DNA from: an uncultured Ruminococcus sp.
Lineage (GTDB): Bacteria > Bacillota > Clostridia > Oscillospirales > CAG-272
Length of the DNA: 55,060 nucleotides
Direction: 5' to 3'
NCBI GenBank assembly: GCA_902779285.1
Contig: CACZAZ010000005.1
Location: 1 to 55,060 of the forward strand
Below the pieces are notes generated by a model. It saw nothing but the letters and a program-made list of their open reading frames with translations, was not told where the DNA came from and did no database searches. Each line of letters opens with the position of its first letter. Positions within the stretch are counted from its first letter, which is position 1. Below, one piece after another: positions 6,232 to 50,087 of the stretch. Position numbers and translations under genes: made by a program.

Positions 6232-6469
6232 AAAGCAAAACGAAAACAGGAAGAACGGACGGCGCGAGCCACTCGGAGAGCGCCCGTTTTTCCCTGTCGT
6301 TCGGGGAAAATCGCTTGACAGAAAAAGCGGGGATTGGTATAATAGAATCAATACGGAACAGAGATTCCGACGGACGACAAAAGGAGCGTAACGGTATGGG
6401 CAACGTCAAGATCGATTTTGCAAAGACGCAGGGCAAGATCAAGGATATGAACAGCGTCAACAACGGTCC
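6232..6469 (+). repeat. Downstream copy of the duplicated promoter/5'-coding segment
   Basis: Near-identical partner of 4648-4886. Differences cluster just after the transcription start (ACGACCGT versus AGAGAT) and at single bases. Confidence 0.85.
6315..6343 (+). promoter_or_regulatory. Consensus sigma-A promoter of the second glycosidase gene
   Basis: TTGACA at 6315-6320, 17-bp spacer, TATAAT at 6338-6343. It duplicates the promoter of copy 1. Confidence 0.93.
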
Positions 6470-7733
6470 CGACGGGGAGTTCGATTACGGGAGTTACGAC
6501 GCCTACAAGGCGGCGCGCATCCCCTTCGCGCGGCTGCACGACTCGGCGCTCAACTGGCGCCATACCGTCGATATCATCCACGTTTTCCCGAACTTTGACG
6601 CCGACGAGAACGACCCGGCGTCCTACGACTTTACCCTGACCGACGAATACCTCGATACGATCGAGCGCACGGGGACCAAACTCTTTTACCGGCTGGGCAA
6701 CGCGATCGAAGCCGAGTCGAAAAAGTACGGCGCCGTCCCGCCGAAAGATTTTCATAAGTGGGCGCGGATCTGCGAGCATATCGTCCGGCACGAGAACGAG
6801 GGCTGGGCGAACGGTTTTCATCGCGGGATCGAATACTGGGAGATCTGGAACGAGCCCGACCTGAAGGGGCATCAATGCTGGACGGGGACGATCGGCGAGT
6901 ATATCGAACTGTTCGATATCGCGATCCGGCACCTGAAGGGCTGCTTCCCGGATCTGAAGATCGGGGGACCCGCCCTGACCCATATCAAGTGCGCCGAATG
7001 GTGGGACGAGTTTATTCCTTACCTCAAAGAAAAGAAGCCCCCGATGGACTTCTTCTCCTTCCATAAATACGGCAGCGAGCCCGGGAAGTACGCCGAGGAT
7101 ATCGAGATCGCGAAAAAGTATATGGTCGAGGCGGGCTATCCCGACTGCGAACTGATCCTGAACGAGTGGAACTACCTGTGGGGCTGGCAGCCGAAAGAAA
7201 GGGTGCATCACTCCTATCAGGCGCTCCACACGCTGAAGGGCGCGGCATTCGTTGCGGCGGTTATGACCGTCTGCCAGAACACGGCGCTCGATCATCTGAT
7301 GTACTACGACGCGCGGCACAGCTCCTATTTCAACGGGCTGTTCGAGCGCTACACCTGGAAGAACCTCAAACCCTACTACGCCTTCTACGCCTTCGCAGAC
7401 CTCGCCGATCTCGGAACCGAGGTGAAGACCGTCGCCGCGGGAGAGGGGCTGTACGCTCTGGCGGCGAAGAGCGCGGACGGCAAACACGGCGCCCTGATGC
7501 TGACCAACTACAAGAACGAAGTCTCCCTCGACGGCAAGGAGTTTCCGCCCGAAGAGGTGAAGATCGAATGGAACGGGCTCTCCGAAAAGCCGGTGCGCGT
7601 GACGGTGCGGATGCTCGATAACGAACACGACCTCACCGAGATCTCGGGCGAGACCTTCGGGAGCGGCGCCGGGTTCCATACGCTTTCGCTGCCGCTGTTT
7701 GCCACCGCCGTCGTCAATTATGACGAGTTGTGA
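6396..7733 (+). CDS. GH39-like clan GH-A glycoside hydrolase, copy 2
   Basis: A 445-residue paralogue of the preceding gene. Both catalytic residues are kept: Glu153 in YWEIWNEPD and Glu257 in ELILNEWNY. Variation is concentrated in likely substrate loops: residues 25-40, SFHKYGSEPGK versus SFHRYASTTEQ, and LWGWQPKERVH versus LLGWEPRETLL. So the two enzymes may differ in substrate preference while sharing control. The ATG at 6396 has AAAGGAG upstream. Each gene has its own promoter and copy 1 ends in a terminator, so they are adjacent but independent transcription units. No transporter gene accompanies them. Confidence 0.85.
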   Translation: MGNVKIDFAKTQGKIKDMNSVNNGPDGEFDYGSYDAYKAARIPFARLHDSALNWRHTVDIIHVFPNFDADENDPASYDFTLTDEYLDTIERTGTKLFYRLGNAIEAESKKYGAVPPKDFHKWARICEHIVRHENEGWANGFHRGIEYWEIWNEPDLKGHQCWTGTIGEYIELFDIAIRHLKGCFPDLKIGGPALTHIKCAEWWDEFIPYLKEKKPPMDFFSFHKYGSEPGKYAEDIEIAKKYMVEAGYPDCELILNEWNYLWGWQPKERVHHSYQALHTLKGAAFVAAVMTVCQNTALDHLMYYDARHSSYFNGLFERYTWKNLKPYYAFYAFADLADLGTEVKTVAAGEGLYALAAKSADGKHGALMLTNYKNEVSLDGKEFPPEEVKIEWNGLSEKPVRVTVRMLDNEHDLTEISGETFGSGAGFHTLSLPLFATAVVNYDEL

Positions 7734-7734
7734 T

Positions 7735-7840
7735 TTTCGCTGACGCGAAACGTTATGACGCTCCTTTGGAGCGGTTATGAGATTGCCGGGGGCGCGCCCC
7801 CGGCAATCGGTTATGAGCAGGCCGCGCCGTTCGGCGCGGT
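7735..7840. repeat. Mini-hairpin array 1 (GTTATGA spacer)
   Basis: Four short inverted repeats of different sequence are separated by an almost constant spacer (CGTTATGAC, GGTTATGAG, CGGTTATGAG). Hairpins: TTTCGC/GCGAAA; GCTCC-TTT-GGAGC; a perfect 26-nt palindrome at 7782-7807; and CCGCGCC/GGCGCGG. The first spacer-plus-hairpin unit is 22 bp. It starts one base after the stop codon of glycosidase copy 2. Two other arrays of the same design lie at 45880 and 48371. Confidence 0.75.
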
Positions 7841-7869
7841 CTGCGTTTTGGTTTACCGAAAGGGAAGCA

Positions 7870-8057: not shown

Positions 8058-8126
8058 TTTCTTTTATGAAATTCTTTGCTCCACTTTCTTCTAAGAAAGT
8101 GGACGTATCCTCTCCCCCGCGGGGCG

Positions 8127-10310
8127 TTATTTCTTCTTCGCCGCGGGTTTGCGTTTGGCGGCGGGCTTTTTCTTTTCGTCCTTCGGGGTGGAAAAGGCGA
8201 ACTCGACGTTCCCGTCGCGCAGGACGAGTTCCGACGCGAAGGTGCGCCCGGCGCGCGAGACGAAGCCGTCGATCTTTTTGGTCTTGCCCTGCGTCAGGAG
8301 GTCGCGGGCGGCGGCAAGCGGGATATCGCGGCGGCAGAGGTTGACGGGGATGGTGAACTTGCATCCGTTTTTGAATCCCATACACCCGTAGCGGAACCGT
8401 CCGCGCACGACGTGCTCCCCGCAGAGCGGGCAATCCCCGACGATCTCACCGAGCGTCCCGGTCTGTCCCGAATCTCCCGGCGTCTGTCCCGGGATCTCGT
8501 CCTGCCTCGCGAAGATCTCTCCGATCTCTTTGGCGGCGAGCGACACGCTGTCCGAGACGGTCATCTCCCGACGGTAGACCGCCTTCAGCGCCTTTCCCAT
8601 TTCGGCGGTCTTATACTTGTTCATATCGATCTTCATCCGGTCGAGCGCCTGCACCAGATACTCTCCGTCGGGGAGGATGGTATAGACGTCCTTTTTCAAG
8701 GCGATATACCGGCTGCGTTTGGCGTTCTCGATGATCCCGGTGCGGGTGGCTTCGGTGCCGAGTTCCAGCCCGAGAAAGACCGCGCGGTACTCCTCGGTAT
8801 CGTCCTCCGGCGCGCCCTCCTCCGCCGCCTTTTCCTTTTCCTCGCGGAAGGGGTTTTTCAAGAACTGGTTGAGCGTCTCGATGGTATAGTGCTTCGGCGG
8901 GGTGGTCTCCTTTTCCTCCGGGGCGAAGCGGGTGTTCACCTTGTCCCCGACCGAGAGATTCGGGAGGATCTTGTCGCGGCGGGCGTAGTCGTCGTATTTG
9001 GTCCAGCCGGGCTCGACCAGGACCGTGCCTTTCAAGGTAAAGGTCTCGACGTCCCCGACCTTGACCGTGATCTCGGATCGCTCGACCTTGCACTCCTCCG
9101 AACAGAAGTTCGCGACGAAGCGCCGGAAGACCGTGGCGTAGACCTGATTCTCGCGCTCCGAAAGCTTGCCCTTTTCGGGGATCTTGTAGGTCGGGGTGAT
9201 CGCGGAGTGCGACTCGATCTTGCTGTCGTCGAAGATGGATTTCGACTGACGGAACGAGACGGGGTAGCCGAGTTTTGAGATCCCCGCGAGGATCTGGCGC
9301 ACTTTGTCGCACTCGTTTTTCGAGAGGTACTCCGAGTTGGTACGCGGATAGGTGAGATACCCTTCCTCGTAGAGTTTCTGCACGGTCGCCAAACTGTCGT
9401 TCATCGACATCTTGTACTTCTTGCCGAGCAGGTTCTGGAGCGTGGAGAGCGAGAAGAGTTTGCCCGGAAACATCCGGTCGGTCTTGCTCGATTTGTCGGT
9501 CACGACGGCGGTCTCCGCGTTGAGTTTGTCGCAGTAGGCGCGCGCCTCGTCGGCTTTGTCGGCGTCGTAGCGGTTCTTCGAGATCAACTCGACGACCTCG
9601 CCCCCGGTCTTCGCCGCCGAGCGCACCGAAAAATACTTTTTCGGGGAGAAATTGCGGATCTCCATATCCCGGTCGTACACGGCGCGCACGATGGGTACGA
9701 TCACCCGCCCGACGCGCAGGAACTTGCCGGTCTTCAAGGTCGCGTAGCGGGTCAGGTTGGTGCCGTAGAGCCAGTCGATATAGGTGCGGGCGTAGCCCTC
9801 GTTCGCGAGATCGTCGTACTTGTCGTCGTCTTCGAGCGAGGCGAGCGCGCTTCGGACGGTCTCCGGGGTCTGGTCGGGGAGCCAGAGCCGCTTCATGGGC
9901 TTATCCGAGCGGAGCGCGAAGCGGACGCAGGTGCGGACGATGATCTCGCCCTCGCGGTCGGCGTCGCCCGCGTTGACGATCGCCTCGACGTCGGGGCGGT
10001 TGACGAGCGACGTGATGACGTCGAACTGCTGCCGGATGCCGGGATCGACCTTCCGGTTCTCGCCCCGGCGGAGTTCAAACCGGAACTCGGTCGGGATGCA
10101 GGGCAGGTTGTCGAGTTTCCAGCGGGCTTTTCCCGATTCGGGCATCCCGCCCTGGTAGTCCTCGATATCGACGAGCGAGAACAGATGCCCGAACGCCCAG
10201 GTGACGAGATACCCCGGACATTCGAGGTAACCGTTCCGCCTGACGGAGTTCCCGACGGCGGAGGCGATGTTGCGGGCAAGACTCGGTTTTTCGGCTACGA
10301 TCAGGTACAT
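8127..10310 (-). CDS. topB: DNA topoisomerase III (type IA)
   Basis: A 727-residue type IA topoisomerase that relaxes and decatenates DNA through a transient 5'-phosphotyrosine. The N-terminal TOPRIM domain starts MYLIVAEKPSLARNIASAVG and has the acidic NAGDADREGE motif. The active-site tyrosine lies in YLTYPRTNSEYL. The C-terminal part has a zinc-ribbon-like segment (CPLCGEH followed by GCMGFKNGCKF) and ends in a lysine-rich tail (PAAKRKPAAKKK). Length fits the TopB group. The ATG has GGAGG 7 nt upstream. It is transcribed alone, away from a structured intergenic region that carries DnaA-like sites. Confidence 0.95.
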   Translation of the reverse strand: MYLIVAEKPSLARNIASAVGNSVRRNGYLECPGYLVTWAFGHLFSLVDIEDYQGGMPESGKARWKLDNLPCIPTEFRFELRRGENRKVDPGIRQQFDVITSLVNRPDVEAIVNAGDADREGEIIVRTCVRFALRSDKPMKRLWLPDQTPETVRSALASLEDDDKYDDLANEGYARTYIDWLYGTNLTRYATLKTGKFLRVGRVIVPIVRAVYDRDMEIRNFSPKKYFSVRSAAKTGGEVVELISKNRYDADKADEARAYCDKLNAETAVVTDKSSKTDRMFPGKLFSLSTLQNLLGKKYKMSMNDSLATVQKLYEEGYLTYPRTNSEYLSKNECDKVRQILAGISKLGYPVSFRQSKSIFDDSKIESHSAITPTYKIPEKGKLSERENQVYATVFRRFVANFCSEECKVERSEITVKVGDVETFTLKGTVLVEPGWTKYDDYARRDKILPNLSVGDKVNTRFAPEEKETTPPKHYTIETLNQFLKNPFREEKEKAAEEGAPEDDTEEYRAVFLGLELGTEATRTGIIENAKRSRYIALKKDVYTILPDGEYLVQALDRMKIDMNKYKTAEMGKALKAVYRREMTVSDSVSLAAKEIGEIFARQDEIPGQTPGDSGQTGTLGEIVGDCPLCGEHVVRGRFRYGCMGFKNGCKFTIPVNLCRRDIPLAAARDLLTQGKTKKIDGFVSRAGRTFASELVLRDGNVEFAFSTPKDEKKKPAAKRKPAAKKK

Positions 10311-43351: not shown

Positions 43352-45109
43352 ATGGCGTTCGACGCGGGGATGCTTCGCGCGGTGCTTCGCGAGATCAATC
43401 GGGAGACTGGCGAAGGCGCGAAACTCGAAAAGATCTATCAGCCGGCGCGCGACGAAGTGACGCTGACCCTCCGGATGGGGAAGAATATCCGGCGGCTGGT
43501 CATCAACGCCGGGACCTCCTCTCCCAGGGTATGCCTTTCGGATCTGTCCCGCGAGAATCCGACGGTCGCGCCCATGTTCTGTATGCTGCTCCGCAAACAC
43601 CTTGCCGGGGCGCGGCTGCTCCGCTGCGAGCAGATCGGGTTCGAGCGGGCGGCGCGGTTCGTGTTCGCGGGCTACGACGAGATGGGCTACGCGACCGAGA
43701 AGTCGCTTATCGCGGAGGTGATGGGGAAGTACAGCAACTTGATGCTCCTCGACGCCTCCGACAAGATCGCGGCGGTTTTGCGCCCGGTCGATTTCACCAC
43801 CAGCCGCCTGCGGCAGGTATTGCCCGGGATGACGTACGAACTGCCCCCTCCGCAGGGAAAGGCGTCCCCGATCGGGGAGACGAGGGAGGGGTTTTTCGCA
43901 AAATACGAGGCGTATCCCCCGGAACTGCCGCTTGATAAGTTCATTCTGTCTACCTATCTCGGCACGTCAAGACAGGTCGCGCAACAGATCGCGTTCCTTG
44001 CCGGGGGTCCCGACGCGCTCTGCCGGGACGTGACCGCGGACGCGGTGTGGGCGGTCTTTTCCAAGTGGTTTGCCGATCTCGACGCGGGGCGGGTGACCCC
44101 GACCCTGGTGCTTTCCCCCGACGGAACGCCGGTCGATTTCGCCTACGCGCCCGAGACCTATCGCGGGGCGGGGTACGAAAACAGGGTCTGTCCCGATTTC
44201 GCGGGGCTATTCGACGCGTTCTTTGCCGAGCGCGACCGGATCGAGCGTACGCGGCAGCGGGCGCAGGACCTGATCCGTCTGCTCTCGGCGGCGAAGGGGC
44301 GGCTCGTGCGGAAACTCGACGCGCAGACGGCGGAACTTGCCGACACCGCGAAGGGGGAGGAGTACCGCCGGACGGGGGACCTGATCATAGCGAATCTTTA
44401 TCGGCTCCGGCGCGGGGATCGGATCGCGTCGCTCTACGACTATACGCTCGACCCGCCCGCGGAGGTGACGGTCGAACTCGATCCGCGCCTCTCGCCGTCC
44501 GACAACGCCGAGCGCTTCTACAAGCACTATCGCAAATCCAAAACCGCAAAAGCGGTTTTGAGTGAGCAGATCGAACGCTGCCGCGCGGAGATCGAGTATC
44601 TCGATTCGGTGGAGAGTTTTCTCGACCGTGCGGAGACCGAGCAGGACCTTGCGGATATCCGCGACGAACTTTATCGCGCCGGGTACGCGTCGCGGATGAA
44701 GAATTACGCCCCCGCGAAACAGAACAAGCCGTCGAAACCCACCGAGACGGTGACGCCGGGCGGGTACCGGGTGCTGATCGGGCGGAACAATCTGCAGAAC
44801 GACCGCCTGACTTTCAAGGTGGCGGCGCGGGGCGATCTCTGGTTCCACGCGAAGGGGGTGCCGGGGTCGCACGTGATCCTGCTCTGCGACGGGGCGGAGC
44901 CCTCCGCAGAGGATTATACCTTCGCGGCGTCGCTCGCGGCGGGTTACTCGAAAGCCAATGCCGCCGGGGGCGCGACCGTCCCGGTGGACTATACCCGCGT
45001 GTGCAACGTGAAGAAGCCCGCGGGGGCGAGACCGGGGTTTGTGATCTATAAGACCAATTATACGGCGTACGTTCTGCCGAGGAGGATCGGAGAATGGGAA
45101 AAGGGTTGA
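43352..45109 (+). CDS. rqcH: RqcH/NFACT ribosome quality control protein
   Basis: A 585-residue NFACT-family protein. In Bacillus, RqcH binds split 50S subunits with stalled peptidyl-tRNA and adds alanine tails. Domains: NFACT-N (residues 1-~200, MAFDAGMLRAVLREI), helix-hairpin-helix and long coiled coil (~270-430, DNAERFYKHYRKSKTA), and NFACT-R (~460-575, VLIGRNNLQNDRLTFKVAAR, DLWFHAKGVPGSHVIL). At the position of the functional Asp-Arg pair of the family I read Glu98-Arg99 (EQIGFERAARF). RBS GGAGG. It overlaps mnmM by 16 bases. Confidence 0.93.
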   Translation: MAFDAGMLRAVLREINRETGEGAKLEKIYQPARDEVTLTLRMGKNIRRLVINAGTSSPRVCLSDLSRENPTVAPMFCMLLRKHLAGARLLRCEQIGFERAARFVFAGYDEMGYATEKSLIAEVMGKYSNLMLLDASDKIAAVLRPVDFTTSRLRQVLPGMTYELPPPQGKASPIGETREGFFAKYEAYPPELPLDKFILSTYLGTSRQVAQQIAFLAGGPDALCRDVTADAVWAVFSKWFADLDAGRVTPTLVLSPDGTPVDFAYAPETYRGAGYENRVCPDFAGLFDAFFAERDRIERTRQRAQDLIRLLSAAKGRLVRKLDAQTAELADTAKGEEYRRTGDLIIANLYRLRRGDRIASLYDYTLDPPAEVTVELDPRLSPSDNAERFYKHYRKSKTAKAVLSEQIERCRAEIEYLDSVESFLDRAETEQDLADIRDELYRAGYASRMKNYAPAKQNKPSKPTETVTPGGYRVLIGRNNLQNDRLTFKVAARGDLWFHAKGVPGSHVILLCDGAEPSAEDYTFAASLAAGYSKANAAGGATVPVDYTRVCNVKKPAGARPGFVIYKTNYTAYVLPRRIGEWEKG

Positions 45110-45669
45110 ACAATATGGTGGATCTTCTCGAATTGCAGAAGCGGTTTATCCTCGCGCACCTTCGCCCGGGGGACGTCGCGGTTGACTGCACGATGGGGAA
45201 CGGGAACGATACCGCGTTCCTCTCGCAAACCGTCGGGGAAATGGGGCGCGTCTACGCCTTCGATATCCAGGAGGCGGCGCTCGAATCGACCCGCGCGCAC
45301 CTTGCGGAACTCGGCTGCCCGGAGAATTATACGCTGATCCACGCCTCGCATCACAGGATCCTCGAATTCGTGAAGGAAAACCCGAAAGCGGTGATGTTCA
45401 ATCTCGGGTATCTGCCGGGGAGTGGGAAGAAGCAGGTGACCACCATGCGCGAGACGACGATGGAGGCGGTACGGGGCGCCGTCGAACTGCTCGATCACGA
45501 CGGGATCCTCTTGGTCGCGATCTATCCGGGCCACGAGGAGGGTCGGCTCGAGGGCGAGATGCTCGGAGAGTACTTCGCCTCCCTCGACCGTCACAAGATC
45601 TGCTGCTCGTGCTTCAAGATCGTCAACTCTCCCACGTCGCCGTATTTTTACATTGTGGAGAAAAAATAA
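45094..45669 (+). CDS. mnmM: tRNA 5-aminomethyl-2-thiouridine methyltransferase-like protein (MnmM/YtqB family)
   Basis: A 191-residue class I SAM methyltransferase of the YtqB group. VAVDCTMGNGNDTAFLSQTV is the characteristic SAM loop, VYAFDIQEAALESTRAHL the second, and VMFNLGYLPGSGK the catalytic motif IV with the typical NLGYLPG. YtqB/MnmM completes mnm5s2U in the wobble position of some tRNAs in Gram-positive bacteria. It starts inside the end of rqcH with GGAGG from the rqcH reading frame. Length fits the family (~190). Confidence 0.9.
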   Translation: MGKGLNNMVDLLELQKRFILAHLRPGDVAVDCTMGNGNDTAFLSQTVGEMGRVYAFDIQEAALESTRAHLAELGCPENYTLIHASHHRILEFVKENPKAVMFNLGYLPGSGKKQVTTMRETTMEAVRGAVELLDHDGILLVAIYPGHEEGRLEGEMLGEYFASLDRHKICCSCFKIVNSPTSPYFYIVEKK

Positions 45670-45795
45670 GGAACGACGGGGGACGCCCTGCGGGGGAACG
45701 GGAGTTTTTCCCACTTTCTTTCGGGGCACGACCGCATCCCCCGCGCGGGCGTGGTAAGGAAAGTGGGGCAAAGAACTCTATAAAGAATAATAAAA

Positions 45796-45833
45796 GCAAA
45801 ACGGCGAGCCCCTGCGGACTCTCGCCGTTTTGC
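45796..45833. terminator. Hairpin after mnmM
   Basis: GCAAAACGGCGAG pairs with CTCGCCGTTTTGC. The T-rich tail is on the minus side, so as a plus-strand terminator it is weaker. An imperfect inverted repeat (CCCACTTTCTT/AAGGAAAGTGGG) lies before it at about 45710-45770. Confidence 0.6.
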
Positions 45834-45879
45834 GGTTCTATAGCCCGGACTTCAAAGATTGTTTTTGCCTTTGGTAATG

Positions 45880-45978
45880 AATCACGTCGCGCTTGCGCGA
45901 CAATTCATGCAAACGCAGTTTGCAATTCACGCGACCGAAGGGAGCAATTCACGCGGGCTTGCCCGCAATTCATCGCGT
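45880..45978. repeat. Mini-hairpin array 2 (AATTCAY spacer)
   Basis: The spacer AATTCAT or AATTCAC alternates with small hairpins of unrelated sequence, each unit 21-22 bp: GTCGCG-CTTG-CGCGAC, GCAAAC-GCA-GTTTGC, GCGACC-GAA-GGGAGC (needs tandem G-A pairs), GCGGGC-TT-GCCCGC. It lies between mnmM and the rplJ promoter. There is no open frame and no constant repeat long enough for CRISPR. Confidence 0.8.
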
Positions 45979-46042: not shown

Positions 46043-46071
46043 TTGACAAACCCGGCGCGGTACGCTATAAT
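46043..46071 (+). promoter_or_regulatory. Consensus promoter of rplJ-rplL
   Basis: TTGACA, 17-bp spacer, TATAAT; transcription should start near 46078. Confidence 0.93.
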
Positions 46072-46077
46072 AATGCC

Positions 46078-46236
46078 CGTTCCTAAGACAGCAGGTTACA
46101 GTAAAAGCGAAAGCCACCCTGCCGAGGAGAGAAGAATTGACCTGTCGAAACGACGTTTTCGGATCATTCGTCCTTTCCCGTCTTGTGGGGAAAGGATTTT
46201 TTCTTTTCTTCCCTCTTAGCGAATAATCCATACGGA
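46078..46236 (+). promoter_or_regulatory. Ribosomal protein L10 leader with attenuator
   Basis: The leader has the marks of the Firmicutes L10 leader: CCTAAGACAGCAGGT near its start and CCTGCCGAGG ~50 nt later, forming the element that mimics the 23S rRNA L10 site. A terminator hairpin (TCCTTTCCC at 46171-46179 with GGGGAAAGGA at 46187-46196) plus seven T lies before the ribosome binding site. Binding of L10(L12)4 is expected to promote termination, giving autogenous control. Confidence 0.9.
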
Positions 46237-46246
46237 GGTGAACTCA

Positions 46247-46771
46247 ATGCCCAGTCAGAAGATCCTGGAATCCAAGCAGGAGATCGTCCGGAATCTTGCC
46301 GAGAAGATCCGCGGCAGCGCCGCAGGCGTTCTCGTCAAGTACGAGGGGATCACGGTCGAGGATGACACGAAGCTTCGTGCCGCTCTCCGCGCCGCAGGCG
46401 TGGAATACTGCGTCATGAAGAATTCGCTCACCGGCCGCGCCTGTGAGGAAGTCGGATACGGCGATTTGAAGCAGTATCTGGTGGGAATGACCGCGATCGC
46501 GCTCTCCGAGAAAGATCCGGTCGCGCCCGCAAAAATCATCAAGGAGTATGCCGACAAGATCGAAACCTTTGAGATCAAAGCAGGTTTCGTGGACGGCGGT
46601 CTGCTTGATGCCGCAGGGGTCGGCACCCTTGCAAACATCCCGTCGAAGGAGACGCTGATCGCGAAGATGCTCGGGTCCATGATGGCTCCGCTCTACTCGT
46701 TCGCGCGCGTTCTTCAGGCAAAGATCGACAAAGACGGCGGCGCTCCCGCCGAAGCCGCGGCAGAGGCTTGA
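46247..46771 (+). CDS. rplJ: Ribosomal protein L10
   Basis: A 174-residue large-subunit protein forming the base of the L7/L12 stalk. SQKILESKQEIVRNLAEKIR, VLVKYEGITVEDDTKLRAAL and CVMKNSLTGRACEE are typical of the rRNA-binding domain; the end LGSMMAPLYSFARVLQAKID is the helix that binds L12 dimers. The start is the ATG at 46247 (GGAGG 8 nt upstream), not the GTG nine bases earlier that lies on the ribosome binding site. rplL follows after 45 nt. Confidence 0.97.
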   Translation: MPSQKILESKQEIVRNLAEKIRGSAAGVLVKYEGITVEDDTKLRAALRAAGVEYCVMKNSLTGRACEEVGYGDLKQYLVGMTAIALSEKDPVAPAKIIKEYADKIETFEIKAGFVDGGLLDAAGVGTLANIPSKETLIAKMLGSMMAPLYSFARVLQAKIDKDGGAPAEAAAEA

Positions 46772-48370: not shown

Positions 48371-48474
48371 CTTCACTTTTCCGCTTGTGGGAAAACTTCA
48401 CTCGGCGCCGGCGCCGTCTTCACTTTGCCGCAGGCAAAACTTCACTTCGCGGGGCGCCCGCGCGCCGCGAAACC
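48371..48474. repeat. Mini-hairpin array 3 (CTTCACT spacer)
   Basis: CTTCACT occurs at 48371, 48396, 48418 and 48440, each followed by a different small palindrome: TTTTCC-GCTTGT-GGGAAAA, GGCGCCGGCGCC, TTTGCC-GCA-GGCAAA, and TTCGCGG...CCGCGAA. Unit lengths are 25, 22 and 22 bp. It lies between two divergent genes, upstream of both promoters. Confidence 0.8.
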
Positions 48475-48533
48475 TCGTTCTAAAACAGGGGGGCGGTGCA
48501 TAGAATATACCAAATTACCGAAGGAGAAGCGAT

Positions 48534-50087
48534 ATGGAAAAGGGAATCTACAAGGGTTTTCACGGGGTGAAGGATATGGCGCCCGGGGTCGTGCGCGGGG
48601 AGTGCGTGATCGACGTGACGCTCCCCGACTACGAGCCCGAGATCCGCAGGATCTTTGGGGCGTCGGCGTATGCGCAGCCGACGGGGAAGTACCTTTCCGG
48701 GGGAAAAGCCGAGTTTGCCGGGACGGTCCGGCACGTCGTCTACTGCGCGAACGCCGACGGGGGCGTGTCGGTCCTGCCGCTGTCGGGGGACTACCTGTTC
48801 TCGTTCCCCGCGCCCGACGGGGGAGAGCCGACGCTTTTGCCCGTGGTCCCGGACGCGCCGATTTGCCGTCTGATCGGTCCGCGCCGTCTTTCGATCCGCA
48901 CCCCGCTGTCGGCTACGGCTCGCTGCTACGCGCCGAGGGAGAGTTCGTCCGCCCTGCCGACGCTGACCGCCGACCCCGACGTGATCTCCCTGATCCACCC
49001 GGTCGGAACACACCGCGCCGAGACGGTCTCGCTCCGCGACGTGCGGGTGGGGGACGTGATCCGGACGGACGGGGAGGCAAAGGTGCTTTCGTGCGAGGCG
49101 TCGGCGTGCGTGCGCGAGGTAAACCCGACCCCGCATGGGGTGGAGGTAAGGGGCGACGTTCCGCTCGTTCTGAAACTCGACAGAGGCGACGGCGTACCCT
49201 CGGAGGTGCGGCGGAAGATCCCGTTTTCCGAGGTCGTCCCGCTTGAGGGAGAGTTCCTTGACGGCGGGAGCGCGTCGGCGTGGGCGTGCGTCACGTCGTG
49301 CGACGTATCCCCCTCGGGCGGGGAGCCGGCGAGCGAGATCTCGGTCGATCTGACGCTGGATCTTATTGCCGAGGTCACTTTTCCCGTCGAGGAGGAGGCG
49401 CTGGTCGACCTGTTCTCGCTGAAAGAGCCGACCGCCGTTCGGACCGAGCGGATCGGGGTGACCGACGTTTGCTTCTGCGGGGGCGGGGTCTATACGCTCG
49501 AGGGCGCGGCAGAGCGCAGCGAGTGCAACTGCGAGGACGCGATGACGGTGCTCGGAGAGTCCGCCGCCGTTTCGGTCGAGTCCGCGTCGGTCGGGGAGGA
49601 CGGGGCGACCGTTGCGGGCGAATGCCGGGTCTTCGCGGCGGTCGGCTCTCCCTCGGGCGACGGGGAGACGGTCTACACGGCGGCGAACTTCCGCTTCCCG
49701 TATTCCGTGACGGTCCCGGTCCCCGCCGAATGCCGCGCCGCCCCAAAGGTCGACGCGACGGCGATCCCGGTCTCGGTGACGGTGAAACTCGACGCCGCGC
49801 GGCTGCTCGCGTCTGTCGAGTGCGCGTTCACCGTCCGTCTCTCGGGCGAGGGGGAAGTAACGGTGGTCAGAGACGTCGAGCGAGGTGAGGGCGAGTACCC
49901 GGAACGGGCGCCGGGGGAGATCGTCGCGGTCTATCCCGAAGGGGGAGAAACGCTCTGGGACGTCGCCGTTCGCTACGGCGTTTCGCCCGATTCGGTCGCG
50001 GAAACGAACGGTTTGCCCGAGACGGCGAAAGCCGAGCCCGACGCGCAAAACTCGCTCGACGGGGTGGTTCGGCTGCTGATCGGGTGA
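48534..50087 (+). CDS. SPOCS (DUF3794) and LysM domain protein, SipL-like
   Basis: A 517-residue protein. The N-terminal ~130 residues (DVTLPDYEPEIRRIFGASAY) and a second and third unit (RDVRVGDVIRTDGEAKVLSC; DAMTVLGESAAVSVESASVG region) match the SPOCS/DUF3794 fold. The C terminus is a LysM domain (EIVAVYPEGGETLWDVAVRY...VAETNGLPE). SipL of Clostridioides, with this layout, ties coat morphogenetic protein SpoIVA to the forespore. This is the window's best evidence for a sporulation-capable ancestry. GGAG precedes the ATG. A weak TTCTAA-N17-TAGAAT promoter lies at 48478-48506. The exact role is inferred. Confidence 0.85.
   Translation: MEKGIYKGFHGVKDMAPGVVRGECVIDVTLPDYEPEIRRIFGASAYAQPTGKYLSGGKAEFAGTVRHVVYCANADGGVSVLPLSGDYLFSFPAPDGGEPTLLPVVPDAPICRLIGPRRLSIRTPLSATARCYAPRESSSALPTLTADPDVISLIHPVGTHRAETVSLRDVRVGDVIRTDGEAKVLSCEASACVREVNPTPHGVEVRGDVPLVLKLDRGDGVPSEVRRKIPFSEVVPLEGEFLDGGSASAWACVTSCDVSPSGGEPASEISVDLTLDLIAEVTFPVEEEALVDLFSLKEPTAVRTERIGVTDVCFCGGGVYTLEGAAERSECNCEDAMTVLGESAAVSVESASVGEDGATVAGECRVFAAVGSPSGDGETVYTAANFRFPYSVTVPVPAECRAAPKVDATAIPVSVTVKLDAARLLASVECAFTVRLSGEGEVTVVRDVERGEGEYPERAPGEIVAVYPEGGETLWDVAVRYGVSPDSVAETNGLPETAKAEPDAQNSLDGVVRLLIG

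Follow-up and report, generated by a model that had tools for sequence, protein, structure and literature searches.

Hairpin and heptamer arrays accompanied by S23/IVP genes in an uncultured Ruminococcus sp. and its relatives suggest a new kind of selfish DNA repeat

Three intergenic arrays of short hairpins alternating with constant heptamers, in a 55,060-nucleotide contig stretch of an uncultured Ruminococcus sp. (the whole of it is termed the window below), are confirmed as real, oriented and beyond chance. They belong to dispersed families that occur in the source genome, elsewhere in the genus and in some further families of the order. Genes of the S23/23S-rRNA-IVP family (PF05635, here IVP) are associated with such arrays, and the heptamer class of the arrays is congruent with the IVP protein tree. 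The results suggest that these hairpin/heptamer families, each tending to go with its own version of IVP, are a new kind of selfish DNA repeat. The link of S23/IVP genes to the arrays is new here; the ATTTCAY class of arrays is already catalogued as Gut-1. The interpretation offered in a preliminary description of this DNA is partly supported, and what it overlooked includes the TCAY core, the strand-specific loops and the PF05635 genes that accompany the arrays.

The window sequence places all three arrays where they had been described (Table 1). Each has a spacer of its own, and GTTATGA, AATTCAY and CTTCAC(T) were indeed recovered as separate classes. On one strand, a TCAY-containing heptamer comes after each hairpin. 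The spacer GTTATGA given for array 1 agrees with the sequence, but its orientation had been missed, as array 1 lies on the minus strand with TCATAAC. Hairpins described as perfect inverted repeats are perfect except for hairpin 3 of array 2 and hairpins 1 and 4 of array 3. The differing arms within an array, which had been read as covariation, mostly belong to different units, but a paired change does exist between species at the array-3 site, where the last hairpin is altered on both arms.

Table 1. Positions of the arrays and neighboring features in the window.
Feature	Position	Strand	Description	Basis
GH39-like glycosyl hydrolase gene	6315-7733	+	Upstream of array 1	Pfam PF01229
First heptamer of array 1	7727-7733	-	GTTGTGA on plus, TCACAAC on minus	Sequence
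Array 1	7735-7844	-	Four hairpins: 7735-7750, 7759-7773, 7781-7808, 7817-7844	
Array 1 heptamers	7752-7758, 7774-7780, 7810-7816		GTTATGA on plus, TCATAAC class on minus	
Topoisomerase gene	8127-10310	-	Convergent on array 1	
Putative rRNA methylase gene	45094-45669	+	Upstream of array 2	
Array 2	45886-45973	+	Hairpins 45886-45901, 45909-45923, 45931-45945 (imperfect), 45953-45966	
Array 2 heptamers	45902, 45924, 45946, 45967		AATTCAY, each 3' of a hairpin	
L10 leader	46064-46211	+	Downstream of array 2	Rfam RF00557
rplJ	46238-46771		Beyond L10 leader	PF00466
Array 3	48371-48478	+	Hairpins 48377-48394 (imperfect), 48402-48416, 48424-48438, 48446-48471 (imperfect)	
Array 3 spacers			(A/T)CTTCAC between hairpins	
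SipL/SPOCS-domain gene	48534-50087	+	Downstream of array 3	

The GH39 gene ends with the TGA that lies within the first heptamer of array 1, and the same coincidence was seen in a phage portal gene (position 1515 of L492). Such a TGA ends an open frame of at least 100 codons in 23 of 255 arrays, compared with 11 of 255 in another frame; stop-codon supply is recurrent and was rejected as a general role of the arrays. Elsewhere in the source genome (L045), a 60-base block of three hairpins with CTTG loops is repeated 177 bases apart, at 36-96 and 213-273. The window also holds another dispersed repeat, at 45678-45845 and about 8060-8100, which consists of ACTTTCTT..AAGAAAGT and then a CGCCGTTTTGCGGTTCTATAG terminator. 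The ACTTTCTT..AAGAAAGT repeat has several copies in the source genome and in the sister species G021 and G024, and sometimes adjoins arrays.

A strict detector, which required one 6-mer at least three times with perfect hairpins in between, recovered arrays 1 and 3 from the window and nothing from 20 dinucleotide shuffles, so that these two came through the shuffle check proposed for the arrays; array 2 was missed because its hairpin 3 is imperfect. With a 5-mer, the detector found three arrays in the window and 0 to 3 in shuffles, and that setting is therefore not significant. Across the source genome, a triple AATTCA pattern gave 46 overlapping matches (32 + 14) on 16 contigs, two of the matches being array 2, against none for the reversed pattern. 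A double TCATAAC pattern gave 19 matches and its control none (7 control matches in all over 40 genomes). CTTCAC pairs gave 33 + 14 matches, some hairpin arrays and some not, against 4 + 0 in the control. Of the 431 distinct intervals from one AATTCAY heptamer to the next, 289 are filled by a perfect full-length hairpin (shuffled mean 4.6), as are 83 of 139 for ATTTCAY (0.75), 45 of 80 for ATATCAY (0.25) and 17 of 46 for ACTTCAY (0.15), compared with 0/18, 0/3 and 1/25 for control words; since the DNA was largely chosen for matching, these are not genome-wide rates. A class-blind detector reported 14 arrays in 439 kb of the source genome versus 1 in one shuffle, although two of the 14 (AGGGTC, ATTCTT) look unlike this kind. 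It reported 2 versus 0 shuffled in 323 kb of genus genomes lacking AATTCAY triplets, and, for other families of the order, 10 versus 0 in 358 kb of DNA that had been selected in part because it lay near earlier matches. Folded as single-stranded DNA, array 1 has a z of about -7 on either strand, with none of 200 shuffles as stable; arrays 2 and 3 on the plus strand reach -2.9 and -2.5 (2/200 and 3/200 shuffles as stable).

Related genomes do contain similar arrays, a point on which the preliminary description had let its claim depend. Of 59 relatives (the source genome counted), 28 have AATTCAY triplets, as do 7 of 24 genera, and TCATAAC pairs are present in 35 of 40 genus genomes. In DNA largely selected for matches, the pattern N-N-W-TCAY/hairpin/N-N-W-TCAY was found 485 times versus 12 in shuffled sequence, and units with the same heptamer on both sides 391 times versus 0. 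The classes are AATTCAY, ATTTCAY, ATATCAY and ACTTCAY, with few GCTTCAY, ACATCAY and AAATCAY, and an ATATCG class was read by eye; the TCAY core is common to most of them. In a scan of the phylum, the AATTCAY-type pattern matched 2 of 398 genomes, namely the source genome and G209, whose match is without hairpins by eye. A scan of named genomes yielded at least 119 stretches, 75 of them with two or more units among the matches listed; 51 of the 80 titled stretches listed were positive by hand count, comprising 50 Clostridia-type or Bacillota and 1 Synergistes. Under a loose rule, 14 of 57 stretches from viral contigs had at least two units. On phage contigs L492 (100-4487), L483 and L525, arrays lie between portal, head and terminase genes, and L492 carries ATATCAY and ATTTCAY arrays at several gene junctions.

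Comparison of orthologous sites, which had been suggested as a check, shows replacement of units and classes. At the array-1 site, three sister species carry three classes on the same strand, all starting at or near the GH39 stop codon: TCATAAC in the source genome, ACGTCAY/ACATCAT in G021 and AATTCAY in G024. The GH39 gene of G021 is 97.5% identical over 1340 bases, on a contig that ends without the right-hand flank; G024 has two GH39 copies, and the one adjoining the site is 78% identical. The array-2 site has AATTCAY in the source genome versus ACATCAT/GCATCAC in G024 (the G021 contig stops before it), and the array-3 site keeps ACTTCAC in the three species with differing units and two ACATCAC in G021. 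At position 59067 of contig C3 the source genome has four hairpins and G024 one; at position 21645 of C81, G021 has another class, but the downstream gene differs there. Other intergenic regions compared had arrays in one species only, or none. Similar composites (minus array, centre, plus array) recur at different sites, and many elements contain both orientations. One relative has 15 TCATAAC elements at different places with a common core of about 126 bases. Among the 14 counted, the stems are nearly invariant and the variable parts are the loop bases, a single heptamer and the 5' edge; outside the core, the elements have other repeat modules in common, in mosaic fashion. A search for a clean empty site with target duplication found none, and no target-site duplication was established.

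The 359 distinct proteins adjoining arrays (from overlapping loci, some being pieces of one gene) have as their largest clusters a tRNA methyltransferase (10) and PF05635 (9, five of which were checked with Pfam). PF05635 is present in 47 of 59 relatives and 0 of 14 control genomes, and the source genome has three copies. Class-assigned arrays were found at 46 of 70 examined IVP loci of the order, upstream of the gene in all 46 and also downstream in 7, and 147 of 150 units belong to the main class of their locus. The controls gave 0/70 for shuffled flanks, 0/24 for Y1 loci and 2/28 for L10-region loci (p 2.7e-9 and 6.9e-8). A class-blind count found arrays at 12 of the first 30 IVP loci, 0/24 Y1 loci and 1/28 L10-region loci. 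The search itself supplied 30 of the 70 loci, and the other 40 were taken from further matches listed, for the most part by E-value; those picked out of order are G050:C49 and G021:C36, near which Gut-1 matches were known, and the third copy of the source genome, on C19. G054:C25, one of the 70, belonged to the loci that first pointed to the IVP gene, the ATATAAC class, with 4 loci, was introduced once the flanks had been read, and four array-bearing loci were excluded from the 70. No class-assigned array was found at 24 of the 70, and other repeats can be made out by eye at some of these. A second IVP type in the order (G012, G006:C21, G011, G016, G020:C43, G044) has AT-rich repeats (TTTGCATT, TTTCAACTTTC) in its flanks, not hairpin arrays.

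On the IVP protein tree, heptamer class changes 11 times over 46 loci and 8 states, compared with a mean of 32.2 and a minimum of 27 in 500 shuffles (103 columns, 32 of 67 inner branches open, GCATCAY merged with ACATCAY). This congruence is partly co-inheritance, because IVP genes of one class often lie at a common site. Pairs of loci with a common flanking ORF number 13/15 for AATTCAY, 6/10 for TCATAAC, 5/28 for ATTTCAY, 3/28 for ACATCAY, 4/15 for ATATCAY and 3/6 for ATATAACT. Against co-inheritance, the array-1 site changes class between sister species and IVP loci of the same class are found in different families. Among 23 other families, sampled at one genome each, 11 have both IVP and Gut-1, 3 IVP only, 1 Gut-1 only and 8 neither (p 0.003). 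The three IVP genes of the source genome have arrays on both sides, of the TCATAAC (C6), ACATCAT (C48) and ATATCGA (C19, by eye) types. The IVP cognate to the class of array 1 is thus C6:44198-44494. For arrays 2 and 3, the source assembly, which is 95% complete, yielded no IVP of the AATTCAY or ACTTCAC type, and relatives do have them; the cognate gene may have been lost or left unassembled, or the two arrays may be relics. In G019, G035 and G006, a composite and an AATTCAY-IVP follow a gene read by eye as tRNA methyltransferase, and at C19:14267 of the source genome a composite follows the methyltransferase gene without IVP.

The constant upstream position (46 of 46 array-bearing loci, with 7 downstream) is also what would be expected of operators or other binding sites, whereby arrays regulate the IVP gene or bind IVP or a nucleoid protein, and spread passively through slippage, duplication and template switching, which keeps the arms matched. 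A block of units duplicated at L131 and a loop that seems to have been inverted (GAAG/CTTC) agree with such passive spread. However, the source genome has 46 AATTCA matches but yielded no IVP of the AATTCAY type, copies that are almost identical are located at different places, arrays occur in phage head modules, and the class differs beside a 97.5% identical gene. These observations call for active spread, and the strand-specific loops described below are left unexplained by template switching alone. We consider the binding-site explanation unlikely.

The loops differ sharply between strands. On the TCAY strand, 528 distinct hairpins include 287 with triloops (GNA 150 versus TNC 8) and 199 with tetraloops, in which GNNA occurs 111 times (GNRA 60, GNYA 51) versus 1 TNNC, CTTG 18 times versus 1 CAAG, and TTCG not at all. 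Hairpins outside arrays (2,994 in all) are symmetric, with GNA 138 and TNC 122 among 1459 triloops and GNNA 117 and TNNC 129 among 1535 tetraloops. TCATAAC hairpins read on that strand agree, as 27 of 38 distinct ones have triloops, with GNA 19 versus TNC 1. The recurrence of a few mini-loops in different arrays had been noticed before, and GNA, GNNA and CTTG are the ones that prevail. Stem mismatches, of which the detector permits few, make up 73 of 2,716 pairs (G.T 22, A.C 11, G.A 23). GNA triloops are stable DNA loops, and d(cGNNAg) and d(gCNNGc) are stable DNA loop motifs as well, as Nakano reportedly described in 2002. GNRA and CUUG are also found as RNA loops, and RNA would prefer GNRA to GNYA, and UUCG. 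Since GNYA and GNRA are about equally frequent and TTCG does not occur, single-stranded DNA is favored over RNA, and the hairpins would act as the former.

Folding energy gives no such preference. Across 152 arrays with at least three units, the designed fold is formed more reliably by the TCAY strand than by its complement, under DNA as well as RNA parameters (0.811 versus 0.685 for RNA), and the two models on the TCAY strand do not separate (0.848 for DNA versus 0.811, p 0.42). Because the TCAY strand is favored under both parameter sets, energy does not decide between DNA and RNA, and this route was dropped. Read as minus-strand RNA, array 3 folds no better than shuffles (z +0.87). According to rough ORF calls, 23 of 206 arrays are inside an ORF, and the 140 arrays with both neighbors within 600 nt comprise 27 convergent, 34 divergent and 79 co-directional cases; in the last, transcription uses the folding strand as template in 51, and it is the coding strand in 28 (p 0.013). 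This template bias may point to the replication strand involved.

The closest catalogued element is Gut-1 RNA (RF01706), in which consecutive hairpins are joined by a constant linker, an architecture as in the arrays (PMC2864571). The Gut-1 linker reads UGUGAAAU, complementary to the heptamer ATTTCAY, and Gut-1 is the ATTTCAY class of the array architecture. The preliminary description set the arrays apart from CRISPR, REP/BIME and ERIC and missed this catalogued class. The accessible part of the source tables Gut-1 as an RNA, "human gut only" and not cis-regulatory, and makes an argument for RNA from UUCG for another motif; it differs from our description in filing Gut-1 as a non-coding RNA with a single heptamer class, with no partner gene mentioned in that part (PMC2864571). 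At the gathering threshold, an Rfam scan of the window reported only tRNA and L10_leader, arrays 1 to 3 being of other classes and missing the Gut-1 cut-off. The model scores 28-31 bits at array loci (gathering score 50). It passes the cut-off in 39 of 59 relatives and at other copies in the source genome, and its only match in 14 control genomes, in E. coli, is below the cut-off.

These matches, together with the better RNA folding of the TCAY strand and the known RNA loops GNRA and CUUG, are what would be expected if the arrays were structured non-coding RNA or mRNA elements whose hairpins work in the transcript and hence covary, as Rfam regards the ATTTCAY class. Alignments indicate, however, that the strand modelled by Rfam is not the TCAY strand but the one with complements of the GNA loops. 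The near parity of GNYA and GNRA, the lack of TTCG, the mixed gene orientations and the template bias of the TCAY strand (both on rough ORF calls) also speak against an RNA, and many elements contain both orientations, so that in any single transcript half of the hairpins would be read in reverse. We regard an RNA element as quite improbable, and the RNA-stability or nucleoid role once suggested for the arrays is unsupported by the loop and orientation data.

In style, the arrays resemble REP/BIME sequences and their RAYT partners, which are likewise short tagged palindromes, intergenic, mosaic, in inverted pairs and with a dedicated partner gene, as described in the accessible parts of two sources (PMC3733652, PMC6006769); the words Firmicutes and Clostridi- are absent from that part of the former. 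This likeness would be explained if the arrays were true REP/BIME moved by a Y1 (RAYT) transposase. The tags differ, though, being GTAG/CGTC in REP and A-N-W-TCAY, TCATAAC and others here. The arms of the arrays vary and their loops are conserved, unlike REP, and the adjoining gene is PF05635, not a Y1 transposase. Y1_Tnp (PF01797) has no match in the source genome, occurs in 3 of the 22 genus genomes that have AATTCAY arrays and in 5 of the 14 that lack them (hand count, source genome included), and adjoins arrays at none of the 24 Y1 loci. A Y1/RAYT partner is largely refuted, true REP is very improbable, and the preliminary description was right to set the arrays apart from REP as defined. 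CRISPR is characterized by cas genes and by unique, non-self spacers between identical repeats; the intervals here are mostly self-complementary hairpins.

When 299 genomes of the phylum were sampled, PF05635 was present in 57, of which three belong to this order. The heptamer classes described here were found at 0 of 30 IVP loci outside the order, and the class-blind detector reported hairpin arrays at 1 of 30, by eye a plain tandem repeat. The flanks have inverted short repeats instead, several with a seven-base period by eye; in L604-L633, inverted repeats such as AGTCAGG, TAACTAG or GTTCGAT often enclose the IVP genes. The longest inverted common word reaches at least 12 bases at 13 of 30 IVP loci (direct, 6/30), compared with 1/15 Y1 loci, 0/21 L10-region loci and 0 in shuffled flanks, and at least 10 bases at 22/30, 6/15 and 3/21; mainly for full flanks, the controls were reduced in this test to 15 of 24 and 21 of 28, and the IVP loci within the order to 17 of 30.

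The intervening sequences (IVS) of 23S rRNA are comparable, as the same protein family lies within an inverted-repeat element and heptamers (GACAGAT) precede the ORF; the accessible part of the source gives the S23/IVP family no known function and cites an older idea that the IVS ORF serves mobility (PMC4990558). IVS are located in 23S rRNA, whereas the IVP genes whose flanks we read appear intergenic with heptamer/hairpin arrays, which are also dispersed without the gene. The TAACTGA repeats of Beggiatoaceae are abundant intergenic heptamers for which no mechanism was evident; they differ in being direct repeats, the accessible text mentions no alternating hairpins, and S23, intervening and four helix have 0 occurrences in it (PMC4679880). 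In the literature searched, mostly open papers in their main text, we found no description of the IVP link, or of the arrays beyond Gut-1.

The IVP of C48 matches 2rld (S23 family, unknown function; E 1.8e-29). A model of the IVP homologue at L298, built from four sequences (pLDDT 91.9), forms a four-helix bundle whose nearest structures are 2rld and 2gsc. It also resembles Avd of diversity-generating retroelements (4dwl, TM 0.72-0.74) and a reverse-transcriptase RNP complex of these elements (8ube, 8ub8, TM 0.75-0.76), with Foldseek E of 0.15-0.37. We know of no catalytic activity or catalytic site of IVP, and another enzyme is therefore expected. The resemblance of PF05635 to Avd is noted in the accessible part of PMC10053308, and a Xanthomonas S23p is said in its description to be a pentameric torus.

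Taken together, we think it probable that the arrays are IVP-partnered dispersed repeats that work like REP/RAYT, with hairpins selected to fold as single-stranded DNA; as the REP tag and transposase tests fail, the system would be REP/RAYT-like but not REP. The arrays would be non-autonomous copies of a dispersed-repeat family, whose unit would be a TCAY-core heptamer alternating with a short hairpin selected for folding on the TCAY strand. The autonomous form would be a small PF05635 four-helix-bundle gene with arrays upstream, sometimes on both sides, pointing outward, and each IVP lineage would tend to pair with one heptamer class. IVP may recognize and bind its own heptamer, the hairpin or both where the DNA is single-stranded, as at replication forks. 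Like RAYT with REP, it may mobilize the arrays by helping units to be copied to, or inserted at, further intergenic sites, with catalysis supplied by a host or other enzyme. The preliminary description had listed a mobile hairpin element as one option, which is in line with the dispersed copies, the replacement at sites and the IVP link.

More tentatively, and with slightly less than even confidence, S23/IVP proteins in and outside 23S rRNA may be dedicated factors of widespread selfish elements bounded by inverted heptamer repeats. Within the order, heptamers and single-stranded DNA hairpins would have given dispersed non-autonomous arrays including Gut-1; outside it, the inverted repeats would be without hairpins. 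If so, orphan heptamer repeats such as TAACTGA would be explained. The novelty rests on the two-part system of arrays and IVP, since the arrays alone are close to Gut-1 or REP-like repeats. If true, Gut-1, an "RNA" in Rfam, would be reread as a DNA repeat, a REP-like system would exist without a Y1 transposase, and the S23/IVP family would have its first role.
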